Source of the DNA: Bacteroidetes bacterium RIFCSPLOWO2_12_FULL_37_12
GTDB lineage: Bacteria; Bacteroidota; Bacteroidia; 2-12-FULL-37-12
Length of the DNA stretch: 51,915 bases
Assembly (NCBI GenBank): GCA_001769655.1
Contig: MEPC01000025.1
Coordinates: 1 to 51,915, forward strand
Direction of reading: 5' to 3'
Part shown: positions 3,601 to 41,104 of the stretch, in pieces
Layout of the letters: every line of letters starts with the position of its first letter
Position numbering within the stretch: the stretch's first letter is position 1
The notes under the pieces: model-generated
Seen by the model: the letters and a program-made list of their open reading frames with translations, nothing else
Told to the model about the DNA's origin: nothing
Database searches by the model: none
Translations under genes and position numbers: made by a program

Positions 3601-3787
3601 TTGTAGTTAACGAACCAGCATCTGTTACCGTTACTGTATAAGTACCCGCCGCTATACTGGAAATATCCTCTGTGGTGGCGGCGTTAGACCAAGCATAGGT
3701 GTAAGGTGTTGTTCCGCCTGTAACTGTTAAATTTGCTGAACCGGTGCTTGCTCCGTTACAAGTAACATTAGTACCCACAATAGATGC
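1..3787 (-). repeat. Tandem array of ~225-bp SprB repeats (about 17 units)
   Basis: About 17 consecutive units of ~75 codons are visible. From unit 3 to unit 16 they alternate: odd units mostly carry a DxKSC-type core (DAKSC, DSKSC, DTKSC, DAKTC, DFKSC) and often WNGGQTT or WNGGATT, while even units carry DxNSC cores (DANSC, DGNSC, DANNC) and WSNAATT-like segments. Unit 13 (DANTC) is a partial exception, and unit 17 breaks the pattern. The alternation suggests growth by duplication of a ~450-bp two-repeat unit. Confidence 0.85.
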
Positions 3788-24606: not shown

Positions 24607-26049
24607 CTATAATCCAACTACAAGGAATTTGCCGATTTTAAACTTACCGCTGGTGTTAATTTTTAAAAAATACATTCCTTCTGAAAGTGAAGAAATATTT
24701 ACCGTTGATTTATTTATTTCCCTTAGGATGATTTCGCCTTGCGTATTAAAAATTTCTATGTGCGATTTTTCACCATCGGGTATAAAAAGATTCTTCCGGG
24801 AAGATATACTATAAGAAACTTCAAACGGGTTAACAGTTTTAGATTCAAGGATTGATGTATTAACAGGAACAAATGTGCCTTTGCGGTATTTTACTGTACC
24901 GGAATTGTCGTCTTCCCAGACCACAAAAACAGTTCCATTGGAAAGCGCTACATCAGCGTTTCTGATTTCATCCTGGTCAACAATATCAAATTGAGTTGGG
25001 AAACCATTTTTTAAATCATTGGTGAAAAGTATAGGTAGTTCGACTACATTATTAACCACCTGTCTCCAAACGATGGCAGATGCACTCCCATCAGAGGATA
25101 TTCGTGGATAATTTTGAGAGGAAAGACCCATGATATTCTCCGTGAGCGGTTTTACTGAATTTAACGTTGTGCTTTTCAATGATGATTTACTGAGATAGGT
25201 TTTTAAGGTTCCTCCGATGCCGTTCATAAAAACAGAATATAACGTGTCATCTTCTATAAATCCATCGGGTCCCGACGATGGGCAATAGGAAATAGTCCAA
25301 TTATTGTTTTCAATTGCAAATCCGCTTGGGAATGAAGTGGCATTATCATTAGAAATTCCCACCCAGGAATCCCTCAGGTTGTTATTATTCATTCTGTAAA
25401 GCATGGCAATAGTGTCACCGGAATTTGTGATTCCCCCCGGACAGCAATCGCAAACAAGACCCCCTTGCTGGTTACTTGCTTTTACATCTGTCATGAAAGT
25501 GTTTCCGTAATCATTTGATTTTGAAATTACCCAACGTGAATCCCCAAAAGAAGGATCAAATTTCATAAAAGCAACCACAGGGTGTCCGGATTTATCAATA
25601 GTAATTGCAGGAAAACGCGAGATGCTGTCACCAATGAAATCAACCTGAATGGGAGATGAAAAAGTATTTCCCTTATCGAAGGAACGTATCAAGTATATAT
25701 GACTGTTTGAAGATGACTCGGGAGTTTGCTTGACCACTACATATACAGTGTCACCCTTCACTGCAATATCAGGACCCATCCAATTACTTGTTGCGACAGA
25801 CAGCCAGGCAGGATTTAGTTTGATTGGAGTAATGAAGTTGTTTCCATTCCATCGGGAAAAATAAACAGATTCATCGGTCATATTTCCCCAAATCAAAAGA
25901 GGATTTCCGGAACCGTCCATTACGATACGAGGATGAAGGTTGCCAAAATTACTTGTCGTTGCATCTGATTGGGAATTCCAGGTGACAACGTTCTGTGAAA
26001 AAGAAAGGTGGGAAAAAATCAATAGCAGGGTAAATTCAATAGTTTTCAT
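24607..26049 (-). CDS. Sialidase/BNR-repeat-like secreted protein with T9SS type A sorting domain
   Basis: The 480-residue protein has a signal peptide (MKTIEFTLLLIFSHLSFS). BNR/Asp-box-like repeats suggest a six-bladed propeller: RSFDKGNTFSSPIQV, SKSNDYGNTFMTDV and ISNDNATSFPSG all fit S.D.G.tF. It ends in a T9SS type A domain (KNLFIPDGEKSHIEIFNTQG to IGKFLVVGL). The catalytic Arg triad and Tyr/Glu pair of true sialidases were not identified, so the enzyme activity is unproven; many T9SS cargo proteins use this fold for binding. Confidence 0.82.
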   Translation of the reverse strand: MKTIEFTLLLIFSHLSFSQNVVTWNSQSDATTSNFGNLHPRIVMDGSGNPLLIWGNMTDESVYFSRWNGNNFITPIKLNPAWLSVATSNWMGPDIAVKGDTVYVVVKQTPESSSNSHIYLIRSFDKGNTFSSPIQVDFIGDSISRFPAITIDKSGHPVVAFMKFDPSFGDSRWVISKSNDYGNTFMTDVKASNQQGGLVCDCCPGGITNSGDTIAMLYRMNNNNLRDSWVGISNDNATSFPSGFAIENNNWTISYCPSSGPDGFIEDDTLYSVFMNGIGGTLKTYLSKSSLKSTTLNSVKPLTENIMGLSSQNYPRISSDGSASAIVWRQVVNNVVELPILFTNDLKNGFPTQFDIVDQDEIRNADVALSNGTVFVVWEDDNSGTVKYRKGTFVPVNTSILESKTVNPFEVSYSISSRKNLFIPDGEKSHIEIFNTQGEIILREINKSTVNISSLSEGMYFLKINTSGKFKIGKFLVVGL

Positions 26050-26271
26050 AAAATTTTATTTTTCAACAAACTTAAATGAAATTTTCTGATTTCACATAAA
26101 TGGGATAAAAAAGTATCGGTGTTTGGGAATATCGGAGTGTCGGAGTATATGGAACTTTTATAGAAGGAAAATCCTTTATTCCAAAGAATGAATTTTATAT
26201 TGAATATTAAAAATATAAAACACTGAAAAACAACATATTAAATAACATTACTTAAATAATCTAACACTACC

Positions 26272-26304
26272 TTATCCACACTAAAGCCAAATTCATGTGG
26301 ATAA
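26272..26304. promoter_or_regulatory. Inverted pair of perfect DnaA boxes
   Basis: TTATCCACA (26272-26280) and its reverse complement TGTGGATAA (26296-26304) are separated by 15 bp, 26 bp upstream of the MraZ-box array. Both equal the strongest E. coli-type DnaA box. They could link dcw transcription to DnaA, or simply form a hairpin. Another TTATCCACA is found inside murC, near 38341. Confidence 0.6.
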
Positions 26305-26329
26305 AAAGTCCCTGTTTTGACCAAAAAAG

Positions 26330-26374
26330 TGGAAAAAAGTGGTAAAAAATGGGAAAAAGTGGTAAAAAGTGTTA
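26330..26374 (+). promoter_or_regulatory. mraZ: MraZ-box array with exact 10-bp spacing
   Basis: The units TGGAA, TGGTA, TGGGA, TGGTA and TGTTA begin at 26330, 26340, 26350, 26360 and 26370, separated by A-rich pentamers. MraZ proteins are known to bind TGGG-type repeats with about 10-bp spacing upstream of their own gene and to repress the dcw cluster. The array abuts the -7 element, which fits autorepression. Confidence 0.75.
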
Positions 26375-26382
26375 TATATTTG
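26375..26382 (+). promoter_or_regulatory. -7 element TATATTTG of the mraZ promoter
   Basis: TATATTTG is a full match to TAnnTTTG. The -33 region would lie within the MraZ boxes and shows no TTTG. The predicted transcript starts close to 26388, only a few bases before the ATG at 26396. Confidence 0.6.
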
Positions 26383-26395
26383 TACCCGTTATACA

Positions 26396-26878
26396 ATGGA
26401 AACAAATAGCAACAACTTTTTATCGGGGGAATATGAATGTAAAGTGGACGCAAAGGGACGTATGTCGTTACCCTTTAAACTCAAGGCAAAACTTCCCAAG
26501 GAGTCAGAAAACAAAGTGATTCTGAATCGTGGTTTTGAACCCTGCTTGGTTTTGTACTCCGTAAATGAATGGGAAAAAGTATATACTAAAGTAGCCGCAC
26601 TAAACGAGTTTAACGAAGAGGACAGGGTTTTCCAGAGAAATTTTGGACGTGGGAACTCTGAACTGGAACTTGATAACCTTGGCAGAATAATGCTTCCTAA
26701 AACCCTAATGAAACATGCATCCATAGAAAGTGACGTAATCGTAATTGGGTTGGGGAACAGGATGGAAGTGTGGAGCCCCGCAGTATATGAACAATATCTT
26801 ATTAAAGACCAGAAAGAATTTTCGAAGCTGGCGCAGAATGTACTTGGGACGAAAGGAGAGAAGGATAAAGAAAAATAA
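26396..26878 (+). CDS. mraZ: Transcriptional regulator MraZ
   Basis: The 160-residue protein begins METNSNNFLSGEYECKVDAK and carries two AbrB-like MraZ motifs: DAKGRMSLPFKLKAKL and DNLGRIMLPKTLMKHA, the latter matching the family's D..GR..LP. I prefer ATG 26396 to the upstream ATG at 26369, since the family starts just before this F.G.y...D.KGR block and the -7 element overlaps the upstream start. It opens the dcw cluster and should repress it through the box array upstream. Its TAA stop overlaps the first bases of a 53-bp repeat. Confidence 0.94.
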   Translation: METNSNNFLSGEYECKVDAKGRMSLPFKLKAKLPKESENKVILNRGFEPCLVLYSVNEWEKVYTKVAALNEFNEEDRVFQRNFGRGNSELELDNLGRIMLPKTLMKHASIESDVIVIGLGNRMEVWSPAVYEQYLIKDQKEFSKLAQNVLGTKGEKDKEK

Positions 26879-26967: not shown

Positions 26968-27894
26968 TTGGCTTCAACTTTTCATACCCCGGCGTTATTA
27001 AAAGAAACCCTTGAAGCGTTACAAATTAAAAAAGATGGAATTTATGTGGATGCCACTTTCGGTGGAGGAGGTCATGCAACGGAAATATTGAAAAATTTAA
27101 ACAACGGAAAATTAATAGTATTTGACCAGGACCCGACAGCGTTGAAAAATAAACCCGATGCAGAAAAAGATAAACTCATAAAAATTCATTCCAACTTCAG
27201 ATTCATGCAACGATTTCTAACATATATAAATATTATCAAAGTGGATGGCATTGTGGCTGACCTTGGAGTTTCTTCTTATCAGTTTGATACACCGGAAAGA
27301 GGATTTTCAACCCGGTTTAATTATCAACTTGATTTACGAATGAACCCTCAATCCCCGTTTGACGCAAGAGAAATTATTAACTCATGGTCTAAGGAAAAAC
27401 TTAGTGATATTTTCTTTGGATACGCAGATCTCACCAATGCAAATGCAATAGCAACAAAATTAATAGAAGAAAGAAAACACAGGAAAATTGAGACCACTTT
27501 TCAACTGATGGAAGTATTGCAACCATTGACGCATGTTAATTTCGAGAATAAATTTTTTGCCAGAGTATTCCAGGCATTGAGAATTGCTGTAAACGATGAA
27601 TTAAATTCTCTGAAAGAATTTTTAAACCAAACTGCAACTATTTTGAATACAGGCGGAAGATTGGCAGTGCTGACGTATCATTCTTTGGAAGACAGAATAG
27701 TTAAAAATTTTATGCGTTCAGGAAATGCAGAGGGAAAAATTAACAAAGATGATTTTGGAAATCCGCAAGTGTCGTTCAAATCAGTATATAAAAAACCCAT
27801 TCAACCTTCGGCGCAGGAAATAAAAAATAACCAGCGGGCGAGAAGCGCGAAGTTGAGAGTAGGGGAGAAGTTAGAAAAAACCTTCAAGGTTTAG
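26968..27894 (+). CDS. rsmH: 16S rRNA (cytosine-1402-N4) methyltransferase RsmH (MraW)
   Basis: The 308-residue protein shows the family signatures HTPALLKETLEAL at the N-terminus, YVDATFGGGGHATEIL (SAM loop), VDGIVADLGVSSYQFDTPER, RVFQALRIAVNDEL and LAVLTYHSLEDRIVKNFM. It methylates C1402 of 16S rRNA. The start is TTG at 26968: no in-frame ATG exists between the upstream stop (26950) and the conserved HTP motif. The final codons (KTFKV and the TAG) lie inside copy 2 of the 53-bp repeat, so this tail comes from the repeat; the usual arginine-rich end (NQRARSAKLRV) is intact before it. Confidence 0.94.
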   Translation: MASTFHTPALLKETLEALQIKKDGIYVDATFGGGGHATEILKNLNNGKLIVFDQDPTALKNKPDAEKDKLIKIHSNFRFMQRFLTYINIIKVDGIVADLGVSSYQFDTPERGFSTRFNYQLDLRMNPQSPFDAREIINSWSKEKLSDIFFGYADLTNANAIATKLIEERKHRKIETTFQLMEVLQPLTHVNFENKFFARVFQALRIAVNDELNSLKEFLNQTATILNTGGRLAVLTYHSLEDRIVKNFMRSGNAEGKINKDDFGNPQVSFKSVYKKPIQPSAQEIKNNQRARSAKLRVGEKLEKTFKV

Positions 27895-27928
27895 CATGGG
27901 TATAGAGCGGTGGATAACCTTGAAAGTT
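27879..27928. repeat. 53-bp dcw-gap repeat, copy 2 (overlaps the rsmH stop)
   Basis: AACCTTCAAGGTTTAG begins within rsmH and supplies its stop; the second arm reads AACCTTGAAAGTTT. The centre differs from the other copies. Confidence 0.78.
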
Positions 27929-27932
27929 TGGG

Positions 27933-27995
27933 ATTAGAAAAAAGAAAATAAAAAATAGAAAATAGAAGAAAGAAAATAGAAAATAGAAAATAGAA
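27933..27995 (+). repeat. Heptanucleotide array before ftsL
   Basis: About eight imperfect units of the AAAATAG type (AGAAAAT, AGAAGAA) fill most of the gap between rsmH and ftsL. Confidence 0.7.
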
Positions 27996-28006
27996 TTAAA
28001 TATCAC

Positions 28007-28375
28007 ATGCTCAACGAATATAAACAAAATCCAGAGCCGGCAGTCAATGCGCCGGAAGAAAAAAAGGGAAGAAGTTTGTTTGCCCTGTTAGACCGCTGGT
28101 TTCGCATCGAACACGGCGTATCATTGAATATCATTCCTAAACTTGCATTCGTGGCACTGATTGGACTGATTTATATTGGTTATGTGCATTATCACGAAAA
28201 AACGATTCGAAGAATAAATCGCATGAAGGTAGAAATAGAGGATTTGAGAACTGATTTTACAACTTTGAAAGCCAAATGCATGATTGCAAGCAAACAGAGT
28301 GAAGTGGCACGCAAGGTTCAACGGCTTGGTTTAAATGAATTGAAGGAATCGCCGAAGAAGATTATTATAAAATGA
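28007..28375 (+). CDS. ftsL: FtsL-like divisome protein
   Basis: The 122-residue protein fits FtsL by position (between rsmH and ftsI) and by architecture: a ~42-residue cytoplasmic part, one membrane helix (IPKLAFVALIGLIYIGYVHY), then a heptad-like coiled coil (INRMKVEIEDLRTDFTTLKA) and a short tail. FtsL joins FtsB and FtsQ to activate FtsW-FtsI at the septum. Sequence identity across this family is always low, so the name rests on context. Confidence 0.82.
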   Translation: MLNEYKQNPEPAVNAPEEKKGRSLFALLDRWFRIEHGVSLNIIPKLAFVALIGLIYIGYVHYHEKTIRRINRMKVEIEDLRTDFTTLKAKCMIASKQSEVARKVQRLGLNELKESPKKIIIK

Positions 28376-28383
28376 TAAAATGT

Positions 28384-28432
28384 TAAATGGTTAGATGGAT
28401 AAATGGTTAAATAGTTTAACGATTAAAAAATG
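28384..28432 (+). repeat. AT-rich low-complexity tract before ftsI
   Basis: Units such as AAATGGTTAGATGGATAAATGGTTAAATAG repeat the words ATGGTTA and ATGGATA imperfectly. This is the ftsL-ftsI counterpart of the heptanucleotide arrays. Confidence 0.5.
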
Positions 28433-28440
28433 TTTTTAAA

Positions 28441-30549
28441 ATGAAAGTAAAGAGTGACATAATCATACGTTCCAGAATTGCATTTCTGTTTGTGTTTTTA
28501 TTGGCATTTATGGTGGTCATGCGGTTAGGTCAAATTCAGTTTGCAGATGGAAAAAAATGGAAAGAGTTGGCACGGGAGAATACACTTCGTTATAAAACCG
28601 TACCGGCAACCCGTGGAAATATTTATTCATCGGACGGAAGTTTACTTGCAACGTCACTGCCTTTTTATCGTGTTGCATTAGATCCAACCGTTTGTCCCGA
28701 TGAAATGTACATCAGAAATATTGATACACTCTCTCAGCTACTTGCCGGATTTTATCAGGATTATCCTGCGGAGTGGTACTACCGGCTTATCCATAATGCC
28801 CGCAAGGGAAATTCTATTTTACATCAGAATCCAAAAAGGTATCTGGTAATAAACAGGAAACGCATAAATTATCAGGACAAGAAAAAGATGATGACCTGGC
28901 CGATTTTTAAAGAAGGAAGGTACACCGGCGGAGTTATGTTCGAAAAAATAAATATCCGCTTTCTTCCATTTAATACAATGGCACAACGGACAGTGGGATT
29001 TATTAATGAGGATAAAGAAGGGGTAGGATTAGAATACACTTTTGATAAGTTGCTTGCCGGTCAGGATGGGAAGACACTTTTTCAGAAAGTTTCAGGGGGA
29101 GAAATACCCATTTACAATGAGAACATGGTTAAACCCGTTGATGGTCTGGATATCCAAACAACGTTAGATATTAATCTTCAGGATCTGGCACATGATGCAT
29201 TATTAAAGACATTAATTCTGAATGAAGCAAAATATGGTTGTTGTATTTTGATGGAAGTAAAAACAGGGGAGATAAAAGCCATGGTAAATCTTGGCAGATT
29301 AAAAAATGGAAATTATGGGGAAGATTATAATTATGCGCTTGGAGATCAGGGGTTGAATGAGCCCGGTTCAACTTTCAAATTAGCTTCCATGATTGCCTTG
29401 CTTGAAAATACCAATGTTCAATTGGAAGATACCGTGGACACCGGAAAAGGAATATTTAAATTTTACCATTCCGCGATGAAAGATGTGAACAAAGCCGGGT
29501 ATGGTAAGATTACATTGCGAGAAGCATTTGAAAAATCTTCCAATATCGGCATATCCAAAACTGTGCATAAATATTTTTCAAAACAACCACAAAAATACAT
29601 AGATGCCCTCTATAATATGGGAATAAACAAAACATTCGGTTTTCAAATTTACGGGGAAGCAAAACCATTTATAAAAAACACAAAAGATAAATCATGGAGT
29701 GGAGTGTCACTACCATGGATTTCGATAGGTTATGAATTAAAACTGGCACCCGTGCATATTCTTACTTTATATAATGCAGTTGCCAACGAAGGAAAAATGA
29801 TACAACCCATCATTGTAAAAAATATTAAACGTTCTGAAAAAACAGTGGAATCGTTTGAAACCAATACGATTAAGCCATCCATTTGCTCTAAAAAAACACT
29901 TGGAAAAATTTACAGTTTGCTGGAAGGCGTGGTAAAGCACGGTACTGCAAAAAATATATATTCACCTAATTACACGATTGCAGGCAAAACCGGTACAGCG
30001 CAGAAAATTGAAAATGGAAGATATATTCAAAAATATTCAACTTCATTCGTCGGATATTTTCCTGCAGAAAATCCCATGTATAGTTGCATTGTGATTGTTG
30101 ACCAACCCAATGGTATTGCGCAAACCGGTTCTTCCGCCAGTGCGCCGGTTTTTAAAGAGATTGCGGATAAAATTATGGCACTTCAACCGGGTTATCAGAA
30201 AACTATTAAAACCAGAGAACTGCCTTTGGTTACTGTGCCGGCAGTGAAATCAGGAAAATTAGCTGAGGTGAAAGAGTTATGTAATAAACTGGCGGTCTCT
30301 AGTTCCATATCGGGAGAGGGAGAATGGGCTCAATCTCAACGCAGAGATAACGCGATTTTGCTAAAAGGATATAATACTTTTCAGAATCTGGTACCAAATG
30401 TCCAGGGAATGACACTCCGCGATGCTTTATATATTCTGGAACAAAACGGATTAAAAGTAAAAGTACGTGGTAACGGAAAAGTAAAAAATCAATCCTTAAA
30501 TCCCGGAGTCAGGTATGAGAGAGGGATGTTGATTGAGTTGGAATGTTAG
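28441..30549 (+). CDS. ftsI: Penicillin-binding protein FtsI (PBP3-like transpeptidase) with PASTA domain
   Basis: The 702-residue protein has an N-terminal membrane helix (RIAFLFVFLLAFMVVMRLGQ), a dimerisation/pedestal region with RGNIYSSDGSLLA, and a transpeptidase domain with all three active-site motifs: STFK (Ser310, nucleophile), SSN (366-368) and KTGT (516-519). A PASTA domain closes it (LVPNVQGMTLRDALYILEQN to MLIELEC). It cross-links septal peptidoglycan with FtsW. The C-terminal PASTA is usual for this group. It sits between ftsL and murE and is separated from murE by repeat copy 3. Confidence 0.95.
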   Translation: MKVKSDIIIRSRIAFLFVFLLAFMVVMRLGQIQFADGKKWKELARENTLRYKTVPATRGNIYSSDGSLLATSLPFYRVALDPTVCPDEMYIRNIDTLSQLLAGFYQDYPAEWYYRLIHNARKGNSILHQNPKRYLVINRKRINYQDKKKMMTWPIFKEGRYTGGVMFEKINIRFLPFNTMAQRTVGFINEDKEGVGLEYTFDKLLAGQDGKTLFQKVSGGEIPIYNENMVKPVDGLDIQTTLDINLQDLAHDALLKTLILNEAKYGCCILMEVKTGEIKAMVNLGRLKNGNYGEDYNYALGDQGLNEPGSTFKLASMIALLENTNVQLEDTVDTGKGIFKFYHSAMKDVNKAGYGKITLREAFEKSSNIGISKTVHKYFSKQPQKYIDALYNMGINKTFGFQIYGEAKPFIKNTKDKSWSGVSLPWISIGYELKLAPVHILTLYNAVANEGKMIQPIIVKNIKRSEKTVESFETNTIKPSICSKKTLGKIYSLLEGVVKHGTAKNIYSPNYTIAGKTGTAQKIENGRYIQKYSTSFVGYFPAENPMYSCIVIVDQPNGIAQTGSSASAPVFKEIADKIMALQPGYQKTIKTRELPLVTVPAVKSGKLAEVKELCNKLAVSSSISGEGEWAQSQRRDNAILLKGYNTFQNLVPNVQGMTLRDALYILEQNGLKVKVRGNGKVKNQSLNPGVRYERGMLIELEC

Positions 30550-30559
30550 GGGAAAAAAA

Positions 30560-30612
30560 AACCTTCAAGGTTTAGTACGGATTTGAGGCGCCGGATAACC
30601 TTGAAGGTTTGA
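30560..30612. repeat. 53-bp dcw-gap repeat, copy 3 (ftsI-murE)
   Basis: Arms AACCTTCAAGGTTT and AACCTTGAAGGTTT surround AGTACGGATTTGAGGCGCCG. It is followed by an AGAAATT-type heptamer array (30612-30644) up to the murE start. Confidence 0.8.
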
Positions 30613-30647
30613 ATTAGAAAAAAGAAATTAGAAATTAGAATATTAGT

Positions 30648-32123
30648 ATGAAATTGTTAAAAGACATATTGTACAAAGTACCGATATCGTCCATAGTTGG
30701 CAGGACTGATCTTCAGGTGGATGCCATTACGGCTGATTCAAGAAAATCGGGTGGGAATTCGGTATTTGTTGCTGTGAAAGGAACGCAGTCAGACGGACAT
30801 GAATTTATTTCTAAAGCAATCAACAACGGGGCTTCGGTAATTGTTTGTCAGCAACTTTCGCCCGTCTTACAAAAAGAAAACGAACATATCACTTTTGTTC
30901 AGGTAGAAGATTCAGCCAGAACATTAGGAATCATTGCCTCAAATTTCTATGATAATCCCTCGTCAAAACTGAAGTTGGTTGGAATAACCGGAACCAACGG
31001 AAAAACCTCCTGTGCCACTTTACTTTACGAACTGTTCATGTTGCTTGGATATAATTCCGGATTAATATCAACAATAAAAAATTGTATTGGTGCAGAATCC
31101 ATACCGGCAACGCATACTACTCCCGATCCAGTGACACTAAATTCTTTGCTGAATAAAATGGTGCAAAACAATTGCACTCATTGTTTTATGGAAGTCAGTT
31201 CGCATGCCATTGTTCAGGAAAGGATAGCCGGATTGGAATTCAGTGGTGCGGTGTTCACCAACATCACGCATGATCATCTGGATTATCATAAAACGTTTGA
31301 CAATTACATAAAAGCCAAAAAAAGATTTTTTGATTTACTTACAGAACATTCGTTTGCACTTATAAATGCCGATGACAAACATTCTGGTATCATGTTGCAA
31401 AATTCAAAAGCAGTTAAAAAAACTTTTGGAATACATACGCTCTCTGATTTTAAAGTGAAAATCATTGAAAACACTTTCTCCGGATTGCATCTTGAAATAA
31501 ATGGAAAAGATACATGGTTCAGTTTTAATGGAATATTTAATGCCTATAATCTAGGAGCCATCGTAGGCACTGCGGTGTTATTGGGACAAGAACTTTCGCT
31601 GGTATTAGAAAAATTAAGTTCATTGCAACCTGTACGCGGAAGGTTTGAAAAATTAGTTTCACCGAATCAGGTTATTGGAATAATTGATTATGCACACACT
31701 CCCGATGCGTTAGAAAATGTTTTGAATACCATCCATGAGTGCATAAACACCAATCAAAAAGTACTCACAGTAGTTGGTTGTGGAGGAAATCGTGACACTT
31801 CCAAAAGACCTATCATGGCAGAAGTGGCGTGCCGGCTGAGTGACACTGTTATTTTTACTTCCGACAACCCCCGGAGTGAAAATCCCATGCTTATATTAGA
31901 GCAAATGCAGAAAGGGATTCCGGCAATTCATTTAAAAGATACGTTGTTAATACCCGACAGGAAGGAAGCGATTAAAACTGCTTATTCTATGTCAAAGCAA
32001 GGAGACATTTTATTGATTGCCGGGAAGGGGCATGAGAATTATCAGGAAATTAATGGCATCAAATATCCATTCGATGATAAGGATGTTTTATGTGAGGTGA
32101 TGAAGGAGGAAAATAGAAAATAG
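30648..32123 (+). CDS. murE: UDP-N-acetylmuramoyl-tripeptide synthetase MurE
   Basis: The 491-residue Mur ligase adds the third stem-peptide residue. Visible motifs: ADSRKSGGNSVFVAVKG at the N-terminus, the P-loop GITGTNGKTSC (112-122), EVSSHAI, FTNITHDHLDYH and the C-terminal DNPRSENP. DNPR (406-409) is the pattern of enzymes that use meso-diaminopimelate, so an mDAP-type peptidoglycan is predicted. The last codons (ENRK and TAG) run into the heptanucleotide array that follows, so the tail is repeat-derived. Confidence 0.95.
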   Translation: MKLLKDILYKVPISSIVGRTDLQVDAITADSRKSGGNSVFVAVKGTQSDGHEFISKAINNGASVIVCQQLSPVLQKENEHITFVQVEDSARTLGIIASNFYDNPSSKLKLVGITGTNGKTSCATLLYELFMLLGYNSGLISTIKNCIGAESIPATHTTPDPVTLNSLLNKMVQNNCTHCFMEVSSHAIVQERIAGLEFSGAVFTNITHDHLDYHKTFDNYIKAKKRFFDLLTEHSFALINADDKHSGIMLQNSKAVKKTFGIHTLSDFKVKIIENTFSGLHLEINGKDTWFSFNGIFNAYNLGAIVGTAVLLGQELSLVLEKLSSLQPVRGRFEKLVSPNQVIGIIDYAHTPDALENVLNTIHECINTNQKVLTVVGCGGNRDTSKRPIMAEVACRLSDTVIFTSDNPRSENPMLILEQMQKGIPAIHLKDTLLIPDRKEAIKTAYSMSKQGDILLIAGKGHENYQEINGIKYPFDDKDVLCEVMKEENRK

Positions 32124-32182
32124 TAAATAGAAAATAGTAAATAGTAAATAGTAAATAGTAAATAGTAAATAGTAAATAGAAA
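32111..32182 (+). repeat. Heptanucleotide array murE-mraY (AGTAAAT units)
   Basis: About ten tandem 7-bp units, first AAAATAG and then AGTAAAT, run from the last codons of murE to 8 bp before the mraY ATG. It is the longest and most regular array in the window. Confidence 0.85.
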
Positions 32183-32189
32183 TAAAAAT

Positions 32190-33425
32190 ATGCTTTATTA
32201 TTTTTTCAGATGGCTTGATAAAACCTACGACTTACCCGGAGCCGGTGTAGTCGAGTATATTTCTTTCAGAGCATCAATGAGCATAGTTTTCTCGTTACTC
32301 ATATCCATGTTTTTAGGAAAATATTTCATTACTCTTTTGAAGAAAAAGCAAGTGGACGAAACAGTCCGCGACCTGGGTCTTCAAGGGCAGAAAGAAAAAG
32401 AGGGAACACCCACCATGGGCGGTCTGATAATCATTACAGCCATTTTTCTCCCGACGGTATTATTTGCAAAGCTAAACAACATTTATATCCTACTAATTTT
32501 AATCACCACTCTTTGGATGGGAATTTTTGGATTTATGGATGATTATATCAAAGTGTTTAAAAAAAACAAACAAGGTTTAAAGGGAATTTTTAAAATATTA
32601 GGTCAATTCAGCATCGGGCTGGTAATTGGTTTATTCATGTTATATCATGGAAATATTGTAATTCGTAATACGGGGCATCTTCCCTTAAAAGGTAATATAC
32701 TATCCTACGATAAAACGGAAGTGTTAGCGAATGGTAGTGACACAAAAGCAAATCTGACCACTATCCCGTTTCTAAAAGGAAATGAATTTGATTATGCAAC
32801 TCCATTGAAAATTTTTGGGATTGGGAGTGAAAAATGGGTATTTATTATTTTTCTTCCGGTTGTGATTTTCATAGTGAGTGCAGTTTCAAACGGGCTGAAC
32901 ATCACTGACGGCTTAGATGGTTTAGCGGCGGGAACAACCGCTATAATCGGTGCGGCGCTTGGAGTTCTTACTTATGTTTCCGGTAATGCGATTTATTCAA
33001 ATTATCTTAATATAATGTATTTACCAGGTGTGGGAGAATTAACTGTTTATTGTTCAGCATTTGTAGGAGCATGCGTTGGATTTTTATGGTACAACTCTTA
33101 TCCGGCGCAGGTATTTATGGGAGATACGGGAAGTTTATCCTTAGGAGCGGCTGTGGCTGTGTTAGCCATCATGATACGGAAAGAGTTATTGCTACCGGTT
33201 CTTTGCGGGGTTTTTCTGATCGAAAATCTTTCTGTCATTCTTCAGGTCAGTTATTTTAAATATACAAAAAAAAGATTTGGAACCGGAAAGAGAATTTTTA
33301 AAATGTCACCCTTGCATCATCATTATCAATTAACAGGTTTTCATGAATCAAAGATTGTAACCAGGTTCTGGATTGTAAGCATCATTCTGGCAATATTGGC
33401 AATAGTGACACTGAAGCTTAGATAA
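32190..33425 (+). CDS. mraY: Phospho-N-acetylmuramoyl-pentapeptide transferase MraY
   Basis: The 411-residue polytopic membrane enzyme makes lipid I from UDP-MurNAc-pentapeptide and undecaprenyl phosphate. Family motifs are present: [11 protein letters not shown], the aspartates of [45 protein letters not shown] and the C-terminal [19 protein letters not shown]. About ten membrane segments are visible. A periplasmic or loop insertion (residues ~160-205) is typical of Bacteroidota and makes it longer than the E. coli enzyme. Confidence 0.96.
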
Positions 33426-33449
33426 GGGAGCGAAATAGAAAATAGAAAA

Positions 33450-33503
33450 AACCCTTCAAGGTTTAGTAAGGATTTGAGGCGCTAGCTAACCTTGAAGGGT
33501 TGA
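33450..33503. repeat. 53-bp dcw-gap repeat, copy 4 (mraY-murD)
   Basis: Arms AACCCTTCAAGGTTT and AACCTTGAAGGGTT enclose AGTAAGGATTTGAGGCGCTA. The extra C in the left arm is matched by an extra G in the right arm, so the pairing is conserved. Confidence 0.8.
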
Positions 33504-33514
33504 ATGAGAAATAG

Positions 33515-33553
33515 CAAATAGCAAATAGAAAATAGTAAATAGAAAATAGGAAA
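33515..33553 (+). repeat. Heptanucleotide array before murD
   Basis: Five units of AAATAGC, AAATAGA or AAATAGT with 7-bp period end just before the murD ATG. Confidence 0.75.
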
Positions 33554-33557
33554 TAAA

Positions 33558-34907
33558 ATGGCTAAACAAAACTATATCGTAATACTTGGAGGGCGTGAAA
33601 GTGGGGTAGGAGCAGCGATACTTGCCAAAAAGCAAGGGCTAAGAGTTTTTGTTTCTGATTATGAAAAAATTCCGGATGAATGGAAAAAACAACTCATAAA
33701 TAATGAAATTAATTTTGAAGAAGGACAACATACGTTAACTGAGATATTAAAGGCAACAGAGATAATAAGAAGTCCAGGAATACCGGATAAAAGCAAAGTG
33801 ATTCAGGAAATACGGGAAAAAAATATTCCAATTATTGGCGAAATAGAATTTGCAGGAAGGTATTCAAAAGCAAAGATGATATGTGTCACGGGCAGTAATG
33901 GAAAAACAACCACCGTAAAATGGATTTATCATATCTTGAAGAAAGCGGGCAAAGATGTGGCGCTTAAAGGAAATGTAGGAGCAAGTTTATCGGCGGCTAT
34001 TGCAGAAAGAGACAGGGAATATTTTGTGGTTGAACTGAGTAGTTTTCAATTGGAAGATATGCACAAGTTCAGAGCACATATAGCCATACTGTTGAATATA
34101 ACACCCGATCATCTCGACCGATACGGCTATAAAATTGAAAATTATATAAAGGCAAAATTCAGAATTATCCGGAACCAAACCTCCGCTGATTATTTTATTT
34201 ATAATACAGATGATACTATTATTTTAAAAGAGTTAAAAAAATTAAAAAGCAAAAAAATGAAACTTATCCCGTTTTCAGTTAAAAAGAAACTGAACAAAGG
34301 CGGGTTTGTTGATAACACCAATTTAATATTTAATTTAAATCCTAAACAAAACTTCATCATGCCACTAACCACACTTGCATTGGATGGTATTCATAACCGT
34401 TACAATGCCCTCGCATCGGGTTTAACTTCTCTTGTTCAGGGAATAGGTAATCCGGAAATTAAAGAAGCTCTCATGGATTTTGAAAACGTAGAGCATCGCC
34501 TTGAACCGGTTTGCAAGGTTCATGGAATTGAATTTATTAACGATTCAAAAGCAACCAACGTGGATTCCGTTTGGTATGCACTTGAGTGCACTCCCAGAAA
34601 TATTATCTGGATAGCCGGAGGAGTTGATAAAGGAAATGATTACAGCATTTTGACAAACTTAGTATCCAAAAAAGTAAAGGCATTAGTTTGTCTCGGAATT
34701 GATAATCGTCCTATCCACGATGCTTTTTCAAAATTTGTCAGCGTAATGGTAAATACAGTAAGCATGGAAGAAGCGGTGAAAATGGCTTATCACCTAAGTG
34801 ATAAAGGGGATACAGTGCTTTTATCTCCTGCATGTTCAAGTTTTGATTTATTTGAAAATTTTGAAGATAGAGGAAGGCAGTTTAAAACTGCTGTAAGACA
34901 GTTGTGA
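33558..34907 (+). CDS. murD: UDP-N-acetylmuramoylalanine-D-glutamate ligase MurD
   Basis: The 449-residue ligase adds D-glutamate to UDP-MurNAc-L-Ala. Features: an N-terminal Rossmann start (IVILGGRESGVGAAILAKKQ), P-loop CVTGSNGKTTTVKW (around 112-119), ELSSFQLED, LNITPDHLDRY, the linker EHRLEPV and FINDSKATNVDS, and the C-terminal LLSPACSSFDLFENFEDRG. The gene lies in the normal place between mraY and ftsW. Confidence 0.96.
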   Translation: MAKQNYIVILGGRESGVGAAILAKKQGLRVFVSDYEKIPDEWKKQLINNEINFEEGQHTLTEILKATEIIRSPGIPDKSKVIQEIREKNIPIIGEIEFAGRYSKAKMICVTGSNGKTTTVKWIYHILKKAGKDVALKGNVGASLSAAIAERDREYFVVELSSFQLEDMHKFRAHIAILLNITPDHLDRYGYKIENYIKAKFRIIRNQTSADYFIYNTDDTIILKELKKLKSKKMKLIPFSVKKKLNKGGFVDNTNLIFNLNPKQNFIMPLTTLALDGIHNRYNALASGLTSLVQGIGNPEIKEALMDFENVEHRLEPVCKVHGIEFINDSKATNVDSVWYALECTPRNIIWIAGGVDKGNDYSILTNLVSKKVKALVCLGIDNRPIHDAFSKFVSVMVNTVSMEEAVKMAYHLSDKGDTVLLSPACSSFDLFENFEDRGRQFKTAVRQL

Positions 34908-34944
34908 TAAGGTATAGGGTATAAGGAAATTTTTAACAATGAAA

Positions 34945-34972
34945 CATAGAAAATAGAAAATAGAAAAATAAA
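34945..34972 (+). repeat. Heptanucleotide array before ftsW
   Basis: Three to four units of AAAATAG fill the space just before the ftsW ATG at 34976. Confidence 0.7.
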
Positions 34973-34975
34973 ACA

Positions 34976-36127
34976 ATGAACAATCTTCGTAAATGGATGG
35001 AAAAAAATCTGAAAGGGGACCCTATTATATGGTTTATAGTAATTACCTTTTCAGTGATAAGCATATTAGTAGTTTATAGTGCATCGGGTGCATTGGCATA
35101 CAGGAGGATGGAAGGCAACACAGAATATTTTCTGATAAAGCAAGCATTACTCATAGGGTTAGGATTATTAGCTATGTGGTTAGCTCATAAAATTGATTAC
35201 AGATATTACTTTGGATTGTCGCGCATTGCGCTGTGGGTATCAGTGCCATTATTATTATTTACCTGGCTTTTCGGGTCTGATGTGAATCATGCATCACGAT
35301 GGTTAACAATTCCTTTAATAAACCAGACCTTTCAACCCAGTGATTTTGCAAAATTAGCTTTGTTGGCGGCTCTCGCCGGAATGTTATCGAAACGCCAGCA
35401 AAATATAGATAATCTTAAAGAATCGCTTCTTCCTATAGTATTCTGGACGGCACTTATCTGCGGATTAATTGCGTTAAGTAATATATCCACTGCCTGCGTT
35501 TTATTTGTAAGTTGTGTTTTAATGCTTTTTATAGGAAGAGTGCCACTAAAACAAATCGGCATGTTATTTATAGGGGCATTGATAGCAGGTGGTTTGGCGC
35601 TCGCTGTCGGTCAACGTTTACCTACTGCTGTAAGCCGTGTACAGGATTATTTAGAAGCTGATAAAGTAAGTTATCAATCGGAACAATCCTATATAGCAAT
35701 TGCCACAGGTGGAATTATTGGAAAGGGACCCGGAAATAGCGAACAACGAAATTTTCTGCCACAACCATACTCAGATTTTATTTACGCCATTATAGTTGAA
35801 GAATATGGTTTGATTGGTGGTTTAGTAATTCTGTTAATGTATTTATTGCTTCTTTTCAGAGGAGTAGTGACAGTGGCACAAAGTAGCAGAGCTTTTGGAG
35901 GTTTATTGGCGGCAGGGTTGAGTTTCGCCTTGGTTATTCAGGCATTGGTGAATGTTTTTGTTGTTGTAGGATTAATGCCGGTGACCGGTTTACCGCTACC
36001 GATGCTTAGCATGGGTGGTACGTCCATACTTTTTACAGGAGCGGCGCTTGGCATAATTCAAAGCGTTGCACATTTTCAAAAGGTGGAAGAACCGATGGTG
36101 GGTGTACCGGTGATGAATAGTAATTAG
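34976..36127 (+). CDS. ftsW: SEDS-family peptidoglycan polymerase FtsW
   Basis: The 383-residue polytopic protein has about ten membrane helices. Family features: the early VVYSASGALAYRR, a loop with WLTIPLINQTFQPSDFAKL, QRNFLPQPYSDFIYAIIVEE (the conserved FlPe..sDFif..i.EE motif) and the closing GLMPVTGLPLPMLSMGGTS. FtsW polymerises lipid II at the septum with FtsI. Confidence 0.95.
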   Translation: MNNLRKWMEKNLKGDPIIWFIVITFSVISILVVYSASGALAYRRMEGNTEYFLIKQALLIGLGLLAMWLAHKIDYRYYFGLSRIALWVSVPLLLFTWLFGSDVNHASRWLTIPLINQTFQPSDFAKLALLAALAGMLSKRQQNIDNLKESLLPIVFWTALICGLIALSNISTACVLFVSCVLMLFIGRVPLKQIGMLFIGALIAGGLALAVGQRLPTAVSRVQDYLEADKVSYQSEQSYIAIATGGIIGKGPGNSEQRNFLPQPYSDFIYAIIVEEYGLIGGLVILLMYLLLLFRGVVTVAQSSRAFGGLLAAGLSFALVIQALVNVFVVVGLMPVTGLPLPMLSMGGTSILFTGAALGIIQSVAHFQKVEEPMVGVPVMNSN

Positions 36128-36190
36128 AAATTGTTCATTGTTCGTTGTTCATTGTTCATTGTTCATTGTTCGTTGTTTGTTATTAGTCAT
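36128..36190 (+). repeat. Heptanucleotide array GTTCATT before murG
   Basis: Seven to eight imperfect units (TTGTTCA, TTGTTCG, TTGTTTG) with 7-bp period follow the ftsW stop. The unit sequence differs from the other gaps but the period is the same. Confidence 0.8.
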
Positions 36191-36238
36191 TAGTTAATAG
36201 TTATTTGTCATTGGAATATAGAAATTTTATAAAAAAAA

Positions 36239-37414
36239 TTGAAATTAAACGATTCATATAGAGTAATAATAAGCGGGGGTGGCACCGGAGGGCATATTTT
36301 TCCGGCACTTGCCATTGCTAACGAAATGAAAAAAAGAAATCCTCAGAATGATATCTTATTTGTGGGTTCTAAACATCGTATGGAGATGAATAGAATTCCT
36401 GAAGCAGGGTATAAGATTATAGGAATAAATATCAGTGGTTTTCAACGAAAAAAGTTATTTGTCAATCTGAGTTTACCATTAAAAGTAATGGCTTGTCTTG
36501 TAAGATGCGCAGGTATTCTTAGAAAGTATAAGCCACAAATTGCAATAGGAGTTGGTGGCTATGTAAGCGGTCCCTTATTACTATCAGCAGTTTTTAATGG
36601 AATTCCTACATTAATCCAGGAACAAAATTCGTACGCCGGTATAACCAATAAAATTCTTGCTCGCTACGTTGATAAGGTATGTGTTGCATACAACAATATG
36701 GAAAAATATTTTCCAAAAGAAAAAATAATACTTACCGGAAATCCTGTCAAAAATGAAATGTTGGAAAGAAAACCGGAGAAAAGCACAGCAATAGAAACTT
36801 TTCACTTACGTCCAGAATTCCCTGTTATATTTATTTCAGGGGGAAGTTTGGGAGCTAGGACACTTAATCTCTCTGTTCTTAATGCGCTGGATGAAATTTA
36901 CAAAGCTAACGTACAGCTCATCTGGCAAACCGGAGAAAGACCTTATGAAGAAATGGTAAAGTTGTTTGAAAACAGGATGGAAGAAATCGTCAAGAAAAAT
37001 GGAGTGAATTACAATATAATTAAAGAAAGAGTAAAAATTGTTCCATTCATTAAAAACATGCACCAGGCATATTCTGCAAGCGATGTTGTGGTAAGCAGAG
37101 CCGGAGCGCTAACTCTTGCAGAGATTTGTACTGTAAAAATACCCTGCATACTTGTGCCATCACCCAATGTGGCGGAAGACCATCAGACCAAAAATGCAGA
37201 GGTGTTGATACAGAAAGGAGCCGGTTGGCTAATTAAAGATAAAGATGCCCAGGCAAATCTGATAAAGAAAGCAATGCAACTTGCTTTTGACGAATTTGAA
37301 AAAGGTAAAATGATAAATAACCAATCAGGAATAGTTCCGGAAAATGCGGCAGAAAAAATAGTAAATGAAGTTGAAAAATTAATTTCAGAACGGTGTTATT
37401 CTAAAAAAACATGA
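36239..37414 (+). CDS. murG: Lipid II synthase MurG (UDP-GlcNAc transferase)
   Basis: The 391-residue GT28 glycosyltransferase converts lipid I to lipid II on the inner face of the membrane. Motifs: VIISGGGTGGHIFPALAIAN near the N-terminus, GVGGYVSGP, the acceptor loop LIQEQNSYAGITNK, GGSLGARTLN, and SRAGALTLAEI with PSPNVAEDHQTKNAE in the nucleotide site. The start is TTG 36239; no ATG lies between it and the GGGTGGH motif, and the family normally begins just before this motif. The stop overlaps the murC start (ATGATAA). Confidence 0.95.
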   Translation: MKLNDSYRVIISGGGTGGHIFPALAIANEMKKRNPQNDILFVGSKHRMEMNRIPEAGYKIIGINISGFQRKKLFVNLSLPLKVMACLVRCAGILRKYKPQIAIGVGGYVSGPLLLSAVFNGIPTLIQEQNSYAGITNKILARYVDKVCVAYNNMEKYFPKEKIILTGNPVKNEMLERKPEKSTAIETFHLRPEFPVIFISGGSLGARTLNLSVLNALDEIYKANVQLIWQTGERPYEEMVKLFENRMEEIVKKNGVNYNIIKERVKIVPFIKNMHQAYSASDVVVSRAGALTLAEICTVKIPCILVPSPNVAEDHQTKNAEVLIQKGAGWLIKDKDAQANLIKKAMQLAFDEFEKGKMINNQSGIVPENAAEKIVNEVEKLISERCYSKKT

Positions 37415-38799
37415 TAACAGACGAAATAAATAAAACATTTTTTTTGGGCATTGGAGGTATTGGGATGAGCGGGCTTGCAAAGTATCTTTATTCCAAAGGA
37501 ATAGCTGTGGCAGGGTATGACAAAACCAAAACTGTATTGACAAGTGAAATGGAGAAAATGGGAATTAAAATACATTATAAAGATAACCCGGAGTTAATTG
37601 ATGATCTTTTTAAAAGCAAAGAAAAAAATCTGGTGGTTTACACTCCTGCCATCCCAAAGGATAATAATGAGTTTAATTATTTCATTAAAAATAATTTTAA
37701 GTTGATAAAAAGATCCGTTTTACTGGGCAAGATTACTGAAAATAGTTTTACAATTTCTGTGGCAGGAACCCATGGAAAAACCACTACTTCCTCATTGATT
37801 ACACATATTCTTAAAACAGCAGGGATAGATTGCACGGCATTTTTAGGTGGGATTACGGTGAATTATGGTTCAAATTATATAAAGGGAAAAGAAAATATAA
37901 TGGTAGTGGAAGCCGATGAATACGACCGTTCTTTTTTAACGCTCCATTCAGACATCGCGGTAGTTACTTCCATGGATCCCGATCATCTGGATATATATGG
38001 CTCTTTTGCGGAAATGAAACAGGCATATTTGGATTTCACAAGGAAGTTGAAATCAGGAGGGAAATTGATTGTCAGAAATGATTTGGAACTTCAAAGCACT
38101 TACCGGTATTTTCTTTCAGGGAATAATACAAAATCAAGTTCCAATCCAACGTTATATACAGGTAAACTAGAAAATACGGGGAAAGGGATAATGAAGGAAG
38201 AATTCAGCGTTCAAACCCCAACAGGTAAATTGGATCATTTGGTATTGGGTATTCCCGGAAAACACAATGTTGAAAATGCCGTTGCGGCGGTTTCAGTGGC
38301 TCAACTCTTGAAAATTCCGGTTAAAAAGCTCAAAAAAGGATTATCCACATTTAATGGTGTAAAACGCAGGTTTGAAATGATTATAAACCGCCCTACCTTG
38401 CTCTTTATTGACGATTATGCACACCACCCACAGGAGATTTTTTCCTGTCTGGATTCATTAAAAAGGAAAATTAAAAAAAGAAATGTCACTGTCATTTTTC
38501 AACCGCATTTATTCAGCAGGACGCGCGATTTTGCTAGAGAATTCGGAGTGTCACTCAGCTTGGCTGATCAAGTCGTTTTGCTTGAAATTTATCCGGCAAG
38601 AGAGAAACCTGTTCCAGGGGTAACATCGGAAATGATTTATAAATACATTGAGTCACCCCAAAAAACAGTGATAAAAAAAGCTGAAGTCATGAATTGGATA
38701 AAAAAAAATAAAAATAAGTTGGATGTTCTTGTTACCATGGGAGCAGGAGATATTGACCAGTTGGTAAAACCGATTAAAAAGTTATTAGAAAATGAATAA
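37411..38799 (+). CDS. murC: UDP-N-acetylmuramate-L-alanine ligase MurC
   Basis: The 462-residue ligase starts the stem peptide by adding L-alanine. Motifs: FLGIGGIGMSGLAKYLYSKG, the P-loop VAGTHGKTTTSSL (117-129), EADEYDRSF, SMDPDHLDIYG, the GVKRRFE linker, DDYAHHPQEI and VIFQPHLFSRTRDF. It overlaps murG by 4 bp and ftsQ by 8 bp, so the three are tightly coupled, unlike the repeat-separated genes before murG. A perfect DnaA box (TTATCCACA) happens to lie in its coding sequence near 38341. Confidence 0.96.
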   Translation: MITDEINKTFFLGIGGIGMSGLAKYLYSKGIAVAGYDKTKTVLTSEMEKMGIKIHYKDNPELIDDLFKSKEKNLVVYTPAIPKDNNEFNYFIKNNFKLIKRSVLLGKITENSFTISVAGTHGKTTTSSLITHILKTAGIDCTAFLGGITVNYGSNYIKGKENIMVVEADEYDRSFLTLHSDIAVVTSMDPDHLDIYGSFAEMKQAYLDFTRKLKSGGKLIVRNDLELQSTYRYFLSGNNTKSSSNPTLYTGKLENTGKGIMKEEFSVQTPTGKLDHLVLGIPGKHNVENAVAAVSVAQLLKIPVKKLKKGLSTFNGVKRRFEMIINRPTLLFIDDYAHHPQEIFSCLDSLKRKIKKRNVTVIFQPHLFSRTRDFAREFGVSLSLADQVVLLEIYPAREKPVPGVTSEMIYKYIESPQKTVIKKAEVMNWIKKNKNKLDVLVTMGAGDIDQLVKPIKKLLENE

Positions 38800-39634
38800 A
38801 ATAGTACACCGGTTAAACGGAAAATTCAGAAAACCATTGGTGGCACTGCTAGTTGCAGGAGTCACGGCAGGATTATTTTTCCTTATAGGATTCGCTCAAA
38901 TAAATCAGAATGAAAAGCGTTGCAGGGAAATATTTGTTAAAATCGACTCTGATTATGATAATTATTTTGTAGATAAGAATATGGTAATGAAAATAATTAC
39001 TAATGATGGAAAGAACCCAGTCATCGGAAAATTTAAGAAAGAAATTCCAGTGACACAAATAGAAAAAATGTTAAAGAAGAATCCGTTTGTTGATAAAGCG
39101 GAAGTATTTTGTGATTTAAACGGCAACATGAATGTAACCGTGTCACAAAAAAAACCCATAGCAAGAATTTTAACCGGTAGTGGCACCAGTTATTATCTTG
39201 ATGAAAAAGGTGACTTGCTTCCCTTATCCCAAAAATACACAGCGAGGGTACTTGTCATTTCCGGCAAACAGGCGGATTTGGAAGTCAGAAAGTTTTTAGA
39301 AAATAAACGTAAGAAAATGGCTGTTCAACATCCTCTAAAGCCAATAGCAGATTCATCGGTATTTTCCGGACCTGTAATGGAATTAATACAATTTATTATA
39401 TCTGACAAATTCTGGAATATGCAAATTGCCCAGATTAATATACACAATTTTTCAAATGTGGATTTAATTCCTGTAGTGGGAGATCAAGTGATTCAGCTGG
39501 GTGAGCCAATAGAAATTCAAAAGAAATTTCAGTACCTCATGGCTTTTTACCGGCAGGCAATGACTGAAACAGGGTGGAATTTATATAGTAGCATTAGTTT
39601 AAAATTTAAAAATCAGATTGTTTGCAGGAAATAA
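38792..39634 (+). CDS. ftsQ: Cell division protein FtsQ
   Basis: The 280-residue protein has a short cytoplasmic start, one membrane helix (PLVALLVAGVTAGLFFLIGF) and a periplasmic part with a POTRA-like region (MVMKIITNDGKNPVIGKF to VDKAEVFCDLNGNMNVTVSQ, then KKPIARIL) and the FtsQ domain ending at FKNQIVCRK. Position between murC and ftsA, size and topology all fit. It bridges FtsL/B and the cytoplasmic ring. Confidence 0.9.
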   Translation: MNKIVHRLNGKFRKPLVALLVAGVTAGLFFLIGFAQINQNEKRCREIFVKIDSDYDNYFVDKNMVMKIITNDGKNPVIGKFKKEIPVTQIEKMLKKNPFVDKAEVFCDLNGNMNVTVSQKKPIARILTGSGTSYYLDEKGDLLPLSQKYTARVLVISGKQADLEVRKFLENKRKKMAVQHPLKPIADSSVFSGPVMELIQFIISDKFWNMQIAQINIHNFSNVDLIPVVGDQVIQLGEPIEIQKKFQYLMAFYRQAMTETGWNLYSSISLKFKNQIVCRK

Positions 39635-39692
39635 GCTTTTTCGCTTTCCAAAATATCAAATATCAAACATTCAACTATTCAATTAATAAAAC

Positions 39693-40988
39693 ATGCAAAA
39701 CGAAACCATAGTGGCAGGTCTTGATATAGGGACCACCAAAATTTGTGTCATCCTTGGCCGAAAAAATGAATTTGGCAAATTGGAAATTCTAGGCATGGGA
39801 AACGCAGAATCCGGGGGTGTAACCCGTGGCGTGGTGACGAACATTGAAAAAACCGTTCAATCAATTCGAGCGGCTATAAAAGAAGCCGAACAGCAAACGG
39901 GTATTAAAATCGGACTAGTAAATGTCGGTATTGCTGGACAACATATTAAAAGTTTACAAGAACACGGTGTACTGATCAGAGATAATTCTGAAACAGAGAT
40001 TAATCAAGAAGATATTAAACGATTAATTGATAATATGTATCGTTTGGTAGTGCCACCCGGAGATCAGATTATTCATGTGATGCCACAAGAGTTTACGGTG
40101 GATCATGAAGGACTTACTCAGGACCCGGTAGGATCACCCGGTGTACGCTTAGAAGCAAATTTTCATATTATCACCGGTCAGATTTCAGCTATTAATAATA
40201 TAAGCAAATGTGTGAAAAGAGCCGAACTCTCTATTGATGAAGTAATTCTCGAACCTTTGGCATCAAGCGCCTCTGTCTTGAGCGAAGAAGAAAAAGAAGC
40301 CGGAGTAGTATTAATTGACATAGGTGGTGGCACAACAGACCTTGCTATTTTTCATGATAGGATTCTTCGCCATACATCGGTCATTCCTTTTGGAGGAAAT
40401 ATTCTTACACAAGATATTAAAGATGGTTTGGTCCTTACTTCTCAACAGGCAGAATTATTAAAAATAAGATTCGGTTCTGCGCTCGCTCCAGAAACAAAAA
40501 ACAATGAAATTGTTTCCATACCCTCGTTGAGGGGAAGAGACCCAAAGGAGATTTCCGTTAGAAATCTTGCACATATAATTCAGGCAAGAATGGAAGATAT
40601 TATCGAGCACATCGCATACGAAATTCATACGTGTGGATACGGAAACAAACTGACAGCAGGAATTGTTTTAACCGGAGGTGGTTCCTTGCTCCAACATATT
40701 TCACAATTATTTGAATACAGAACCGGTATGGATACCCGAATCGGATATCCGAATGAACACCTCGGAAAATGTAAAATTGACTTGATTAAAAGTCCGATGT
40801 ACTCCACCGGCATTGGTTTAGTATTAACGGGTTTCGATTCTCTTGATTTAAGAAAGAAAAATCAATCACAACTTTCACATGAAGTTAGCGCTAAGAGAGA
40901 CGGAACAAAGGATTGGTTTAACAGAATAATTAATGGCACAAAGAAACTGTTGATTGATGAAGAAGTGGATGACACGAAGAGTTATTAA
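39693..40988 (+). CDS. ftsA: Cell division protein FtsA
   Basis: The 431-residue actin-like ATPase anchors FtsZ to the membrane. Signatures: VAGLDIGTTKICVILGRKNE (phosphate 1), GNAESGGVTRGVVTNIEKTV, VLIDIGGGTTDLAIF (phosphate 2) and GIVLTGGGSLLQHISQLFE (adenosine motif). The C-terminus (KDWFNRIINGTKKLL) provides an amphipathic helix for membrane binding. It is separated from ftsZ by a palindromic CCCTCTCC element. Confidence 0.95.
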   Translation: MQNETIVAGLDIGTTKICVILGRKNEFGKLEILGMGNAESGGVTRGVVTNIEKTVQSIRAAIKEAEQQTGIKIGLVNVGIAGQHIKSLQEHGVLIRDNSETEINQEDIKRLIDNMYRLVVPPGDQIIHVMPQEFTVDHEGLTQDPVGSPGVRLEANFHIITGQISAINNISKCVKRAELSIDEVILEPLASSASVLSEEEKEAGVVLIDIGGGTTDLAIFHDRILRHTSVIPFGGNILTQDIKDGLVLTSQQAELLKIRFGSALAPETKNNEIVSIPSLRGRDPKEISVRNLAHIIQARMEDIIEHIAYEIHTCGYGNKLTAGIVLTGGGSLLQHISQLFEYRTGMDTRIGYPNEHLGKCKIDLIKSPMYSTGIGLVLTGFDSLDLRKKNQSQLSHEVSAKRDGTKDWFNRIINGTKKLLIDEEVDDTKSY

Positions 40989-40998
40989 CTACACTTTC

Positions 40999-41038
40999 AC
41001 CCCTCTCCACTTTGGAGAGGGGATGGGGTGAGGTTTTT
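40999..41038. repeat. CCCCTCTCC inverted repeat, copy 1 (ftsA-ftsZ)
   Basis: CCCCTCTCC and GGAGAGGGG form a hairpin, followed by ATGGGGTGAGGT. A copy in the opposite orientation lies at 42709-42747, so ftsZ is bracketed by it. This is a widespread type of dispersed repeat. Confidence 0.75.
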
Positions 41039-41104
41039 CATTAACTAAAAATAAAAAAAAGGAATAATAAAAAAAATTTAATTAATAAATCAAACAAAAA
41101 AACC

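Follow-up and report, generated by a model that had tools for sequence, protein, structure and literature searches.

Two perfect DnaA boxes facing each other upstream of mraZ, at the head of the division (dcw) cluster, raise the question of whether DnaA directly controls dcw transcription and thereby ties division to replication initiation, as was proposed in a preliminary description of this DNA, or whether the site has another explanation. The window, that is the whole stretch of 51,915 nucleotides that was analysed, is one entire contig (C25) of a draft genome from class Bacteroidia, 3.94 Mb in 43 contigs. The locus contains the following features.

24607-26049, minus strand: left neighbour, a secreted-type protein with a Por_Secre_tail domain (Pfam)
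26050-26395, no strand: divergent intergenic region (ORF list, Pfam)
26272-26280, plus strand: outer box of the pair, perfect DnaA-box word TTATCCACA, ending 48 bp before the first MraZ repeat (sequence)
26296-26304, minus strand: inner box of the pair, perfect DnaA-box word (TGTGGATAA on the plus strand), ending 24 bp before the first MraZ repeat (sequence)
26329-26371, plus strand: predicted MraZ operator, GTGG at 26329, GTGG at 26339, ATGG at 26349, GTGG at 26359 and a partial GTG at 26369 (sequence, array finder)
26375-26382, plus strand: putative Bacteroidia -7 promoter element TATATTTG (sequence, inference)
26396-26878, plus strand: mraZ (PF02381, E 2.4e-34)
26968-42589, plus strand: dcw cluster (ORFs; Pfam for seven named genes)
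38341, plus strand: third copy of TTATCCACA, within the Mur ligase ORF 37411-38799 (murC position; Pfam Mur ligase domains)
51319, minus strand: fourth copy of TTATCCACA, within ORF 49257-51902

DnaA-box sequence is present upstream of mraZ as two perfect copies of TTATCCACA in inverted orientation with a gap of 15 bp, exactly as first described; the ATG of mraZ is located 91 bp past the second box, and not 92 bp. Fewer than one copy of this word had been expected in the window; the mean in 100 dinucleotide shuffles was 0.77, and four copies were reached in only 1/100 shuffles. The preliminary description counted the pair and the copy in the ORF at the murC position, but the window holds four copies, the one at 51319 having been overlooked. 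Also overlooked were the MraZ operator repeats beside the boxes.

An MraZ operator is marked by at least three repeats of the GTGG type that precede mraZ at intervals of about 10 bp. The present array consists of four units and one partial unit spaced exactly 10 bp apart, and is by its sequence predicted to be of the MraZ operator type. The consensus of the -7 promoter element in Bacteroidia is TAnnTTTG, and we take TATATTTG, which fits it, to be such an element. The dcw genes confirmed by Pfam were rsmH/mraW, ftsL, an ftsI-type PBP, mraY, the Mur ligase at the murC position, ftsA and ftsZ. Elsewhere in the window, an ORF of 1830 aa (674-6166, minus strand) has a GC content of about 0.45, compared to about 0.35 in the rest, and a strong third-position skew of -0.36 on its coding strand; this ORF was possibly acquired.

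Conservation of the site was studied in 117 mraZ upstream regions from 58 families (family labels transferred by hand), namely those of 116 class genomes, mostly one per genus, and of L083, a Cytophagales MAG contig with the closest MraZ found (61% identity). The 116 genomes were obtained from two MraZ searches with 55 and 184 matching genomes; of the 55, G051, whose genus was already represented, and G056, in which the gene is split, were left out. The relatives found belong to the same class, none being nearer. The f39 genomes G038, G078 and G112 were all without an MraZ match though at least 91% complete, and mraZ may have been lost in this family. The relaxed word TTWTYMACA was observed in the last 150 bp of 96/117 upstreams, with a mean of 9.0 and a maximum of 14 in shuffles, and in 11/117 of the control regions at -400 to -200. 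Over the same 150 bp the strict word TTWTCMACA occurred in 76/117 (shuffles 2.9, maximum 8; distal control 8/117) and perfect TTATCCACA in 14/117 (shuffles 0.2, maximum 2; distal control 2/117). Counted by families with at least one genome carrying the word, the relaxed form was found in 49/58 and the strict form in 40/58. These word counts show class-wide conservation, well above chance, of an element before mraZ that resembles a DnaA box.

An array was recognised in 106 upstreams, the present genome included, and in 11/117 the array finder returned none. A box word accompanies 87 of the 106 arrays, lying no more than 5 bp inside the array or 60 bp ahead of it. The nearest word is plus-oriented in 69 of the 87, directly before the GTGG repeats; 48 of these words end 2-3 bp before the first repeat and 10 more 12-14 bp before it. 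The 18 minus-oriented nearest words are mostly located 5-7, 16-19 or 23-27 bp before the array, and the inner box of the present genome (minus, 24 bp) fits the last group. Because the box keeps so constant a distance from the MraZ repeats, its binding factor may well act next to MraZ.

Conservation of the pair in related genomes had been proposed as a check, and its outcome was mixed. Most relatives have a single box before mraZ, often with A at position 6 (TTTTCAACA, TTATCAACA, TTATTAACA), and at least two boxes within 60 bp of the array were found in 4/106 upstreams, including that of the present genome. The single box-like word is thus class-wide, but the inverted pair as such is, by these sequences, not conserved. 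In the present genome an inverted perfect pair, its boxes ending 24 and 48 bp ahead of the array, would stand in place of the usual single site. The closest relatives also gave a divided result: L083 has a plus-oriented perfect TTATCCACA 1 bp before the MraZ repeats, but of five genomes in f49 and f15, families among the closest by MraZ, four have no box word near mraZ (G057 and G187 in f49, G014 and G214 in f15) and G157 (f15) has only the weak TTTTTAACA.

The alternative that survives best, although we consider it unlikely, is that the conserved word belongs to some other regulator, or else extends the MraZ operator, and happens to resemble a DnaA box, having become a perfect one here by drift or selection. 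The rigid spacing to the MraZ array speaks for this alternative, as does the flank: the mraZ words are preceded by an AAG of their own and are richer in T at position 3, with base frequencies differing from those of words beside nadA, so that another binding protein may be the occupant. GTGG, the MraZ core, is moreover present in TGTGGATAA, the minus orientation of the box. However, position 6 is A in 57 of the 69 nearest plus-oriented elements, and these therefore carry GTGG on neither strand. The minus-oriented boxes are furthermore out of the 10-bp register, with core-to-core distances of 13-15 bp in the 5-7 bp class and 24-27 bp in the 16-19 bp class. This alternative is also opposed by MraZ arrays outside the class. 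In other classes of the phylum, 57 genomes had an MraZ match and the 11 with loci were read; none of these 11 has the word adjoining the array, and therefore MraZ sites do not need the box word. Three of them (L303, L310, L311) have TTWTYMACA within 200 bp of mraZ, away from the array. The E. coli array is likewise without an adjoining word, TTTTCCACA being located about 235 bp before mraZ and away from the MraZ repeats. In most of the other-class loci L302-L309, the MraZ repeats are preceded by a -35 box resembling TTGACTTT; in Bacteroidia, by contrast, the repeats are upstream of the -7 element.

A further argument against this alternative is that the words before mraZ match those enriched near nadA. 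DnaA-box clusters resembling oriC adjoin nadA in several families of the class, and we infer that the nadA side is oriC in these relatives. Three f39 genomes have 13-16 boxes upstream of nadA, and the f39 clusters (L080, L081, L184, L186) contain a repeated box-N2/3-box-N12-box module beside the gene. In the complete genome G039, a box cluster is located between nadA and nadB (L193:11561-11852), 10 kb from dnaA and also near an MnmG-like gene, genes being named from translations and nadA confirmed by TIGR00550. Among the 128 genomes with a match, 70 nadA upstreams were collected, and the three f39 genomes were kept out of the shuffle test. The 67 further upstreams contained 87 TTWTYMACA sites, compared to 15.6 in shuffles (maximum 26). 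Unbiased word counts for the nadA upstreams returned TTATTAACA, TTATCAAC and TATCCACA among the leading words; the forms with A at position 6 that are common before mraZ are therefore also common near nadA. A second word, ATACTAACA, was strongly enriched near nadA (13 genomes, 0.5 expected) and is perhaps another origin element. Near nadA, A and C sites numbered 37 and 7 in genomes with A at position 6 near mraZ, and 4 and 7 in those with C. The match at the level of genomes is weak (Fisher p 0.056 for 18 untied genomes of 25, the 7 ties left out), and the relatives compared are not independent.

It is considerably less probable that the pair is there by chance or binds DnaA passively, as a titration site would, without affecting dcw. 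There is a precedent in E. coli, where the DnaA boxes upstream of ftsZ proved irrelevant to ftsZ transcription, according to the account in PMC8203912. The present genome holds 78 perfect boxes (44 plus, 34 minus; 21 in the mirror-image control), and 23 of the 30 examined sit within ORFs of at least 100 aa. Against a passive site, the arrangement box-N10-20-inverted box occurs a single time in the 3.94 Mb draft genome, as the pair upstream of mraZ. Under random placement of the 44 plus and 34 minus sites, the probability was 0.0037 for convergent boxes so spaced and 0.035 for any two boxes whose starts are no more than 24 bp apart. The class-wide conservation and the near-fixed spacing of the word also oppose this explanation. 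Tight perfect pairs were found in 16/395 genomes, the present one included (mirror control 2/395). In other genomes, the pairs at the 15 loci read, which include one pair each of G293 and G326, are at other genes, as judged from translations, and not at mraZ. At loci L075, L076, L077, L073 and L074 taken together, tight inverted perfect pairs were seen between divergent gyrA-like and clpC-like genes (f52, f9) and also beside parA-like genes (f22), with names taken from translations.

A chromosomal oriC at the pair, unwinding in the AT-rich stretch at about 26160-26271, is highly improbable. By eye, the two boxes do adjoin this stretch. A skew switch at this place had been named in advance as the sign of an origin; however, plus-strand third-position GC skew was positive on both sides of the pair, with values of +0.145, +0.205 and +0.181 in the minus-strand genes to the left and +0.176, +0.152, +0.265 and +0.186 in the first plus-strand genes to the right. 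Of four minus-strand genes at the right end of the window, three again had positive skew. No switch was thus observed at 26.2 kb in the genes on either side, and because the skew keeps its sign across the site, an origin at the pair is ruled out. A cluster of many DnaA boxes is absent as well, with two boxes here versus 13-16 at the f39 origins, and the oriC-like cluster of G039 is 1.73 Mb from mraZ. For G039, sampling the skew in 20 stretches of 20 kb gave too weak a signal to locate the origin, and the box cluster at nadA serves as the guide to it instead. The oriC of the present genome was not found upstream of nadA, around dnaA or in a search for the triple-box module: no box occurs within 600 bp upstream of nadA, the 18 kb around dnaA contain one near-box, and the module, present in 6/197 genomes (mirror control 1/197), is absent from this genome. 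A group of three DnaA-type boxes in 85 bp (L064:6018-6102, in G000:C28) was set aside as a candidate; because it is flanked by an XRE-type regulator and a primase-like gene with recombinases, as read from translations, it was taken to be probably the origin of a mobile element. The idea that the inverted pair forms an RNA hairpin or terminator can be practically dismissed, since its two complementary 9-bp arms and 15-nt loop are located between divergent genes, where no transcript end is expected, and most relatives have a single site unable to form a hairpin.

The explanation that we favour is that the boxes are probably DnaA sites and make up, jointly with the adjoining MraZ repeats, a composite region controlling the dcw promoter. 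DnaA is, with similar confidence, the most likely box factor, and the DnaA of the present genome is complete, with its helix-turn-helix domain. Some findings weigh against DnaA, namely the four of five f49/f15 genomes without the word, the departure of TTTTCAACA and TTATCAACA of most relatives from the TTATNCACA consensus at position 6, and an AAG flank and base frequencies unlike those of the nadA-side words, as would be seen for the site of another protein. DnaA would occupy the boxes next to MraZ and would modulate MraZ repression of dcw transcription, and the output of the division genes would then follow the DnaA (ATP/ADP) state of the replication cycle. The recurrence of a DnaA-type site at a near-fixed spacing from the MraZ repeats in many relatives suggests a possible link between chromosome copying and division. 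For the class Bacteroidia as a whole it is quite possible, but less assured than the reading of the site itself, that dcw is headed by a dedicated composite operator, with DnaA and MraZ side by side at fixed spacing, which arose in the class and was kept in most families, gating dcw transcription by replication initiation. The sign of the effect is a tentative guess: ATP-DnaA could add to the repression, which would be relieved after initiation, and activation is nearly as likely.

How bacteria time division to replication is an open question, and the DnaA-type site that is tied to the MraZ operator across the class allows a simple and direct test of the link between the two in a large group. 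DnaA sites at division genes are already known. In B. subtilis, DnaA binds the ftsL promoter region (Goranov et al. 2005, as cited in PMC8203912). Both cases have DnaA sites, putative ones in Bacteroidia, before early dcw genes and would tie replication to division genes; however, B. subtilis belongs to another phylum, a composite with MraZ repeats is not described in the account cited, and the class-wide, near-fixed spacing is a feature of Bacteroidia. In Caulobacter, DnaA binds the ftsZ promoter and activates ftsZ (Hottes 2005, Fernandez-Fernandez 2011, as cited in PMC8203912), which resembles the putative role of DnaA in Bacteroidia as a transcription factor for division genes. The difference is that DnaA acts at ftsZ in Caulobacter, whereas the boxes of Bacteroidia are at the head of dcw, before mraZ. 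Within the portions of the literature available to our search, no report of a DnaA box before mraZ in Bacteroidota was found, and the class-wide composite of a DnaA-type box with the MraZ operator appears to be new. The MraZ operator described for E. coli, mycoplasmas and Burkholderia, as summarised in PMC7761207, is a repeated GTG motif with a period of about 10 bp before mraZ, and the present repeats share this motif, period and place before mraZ. The operator of E. coli and Burkholderia is downstream of the -10 box (PMC7761207), whereas the repeats here are upstream of the putative -7 element and, unlike those of the published operators as far as these are described there, are preceded by DnaA-type boxes.
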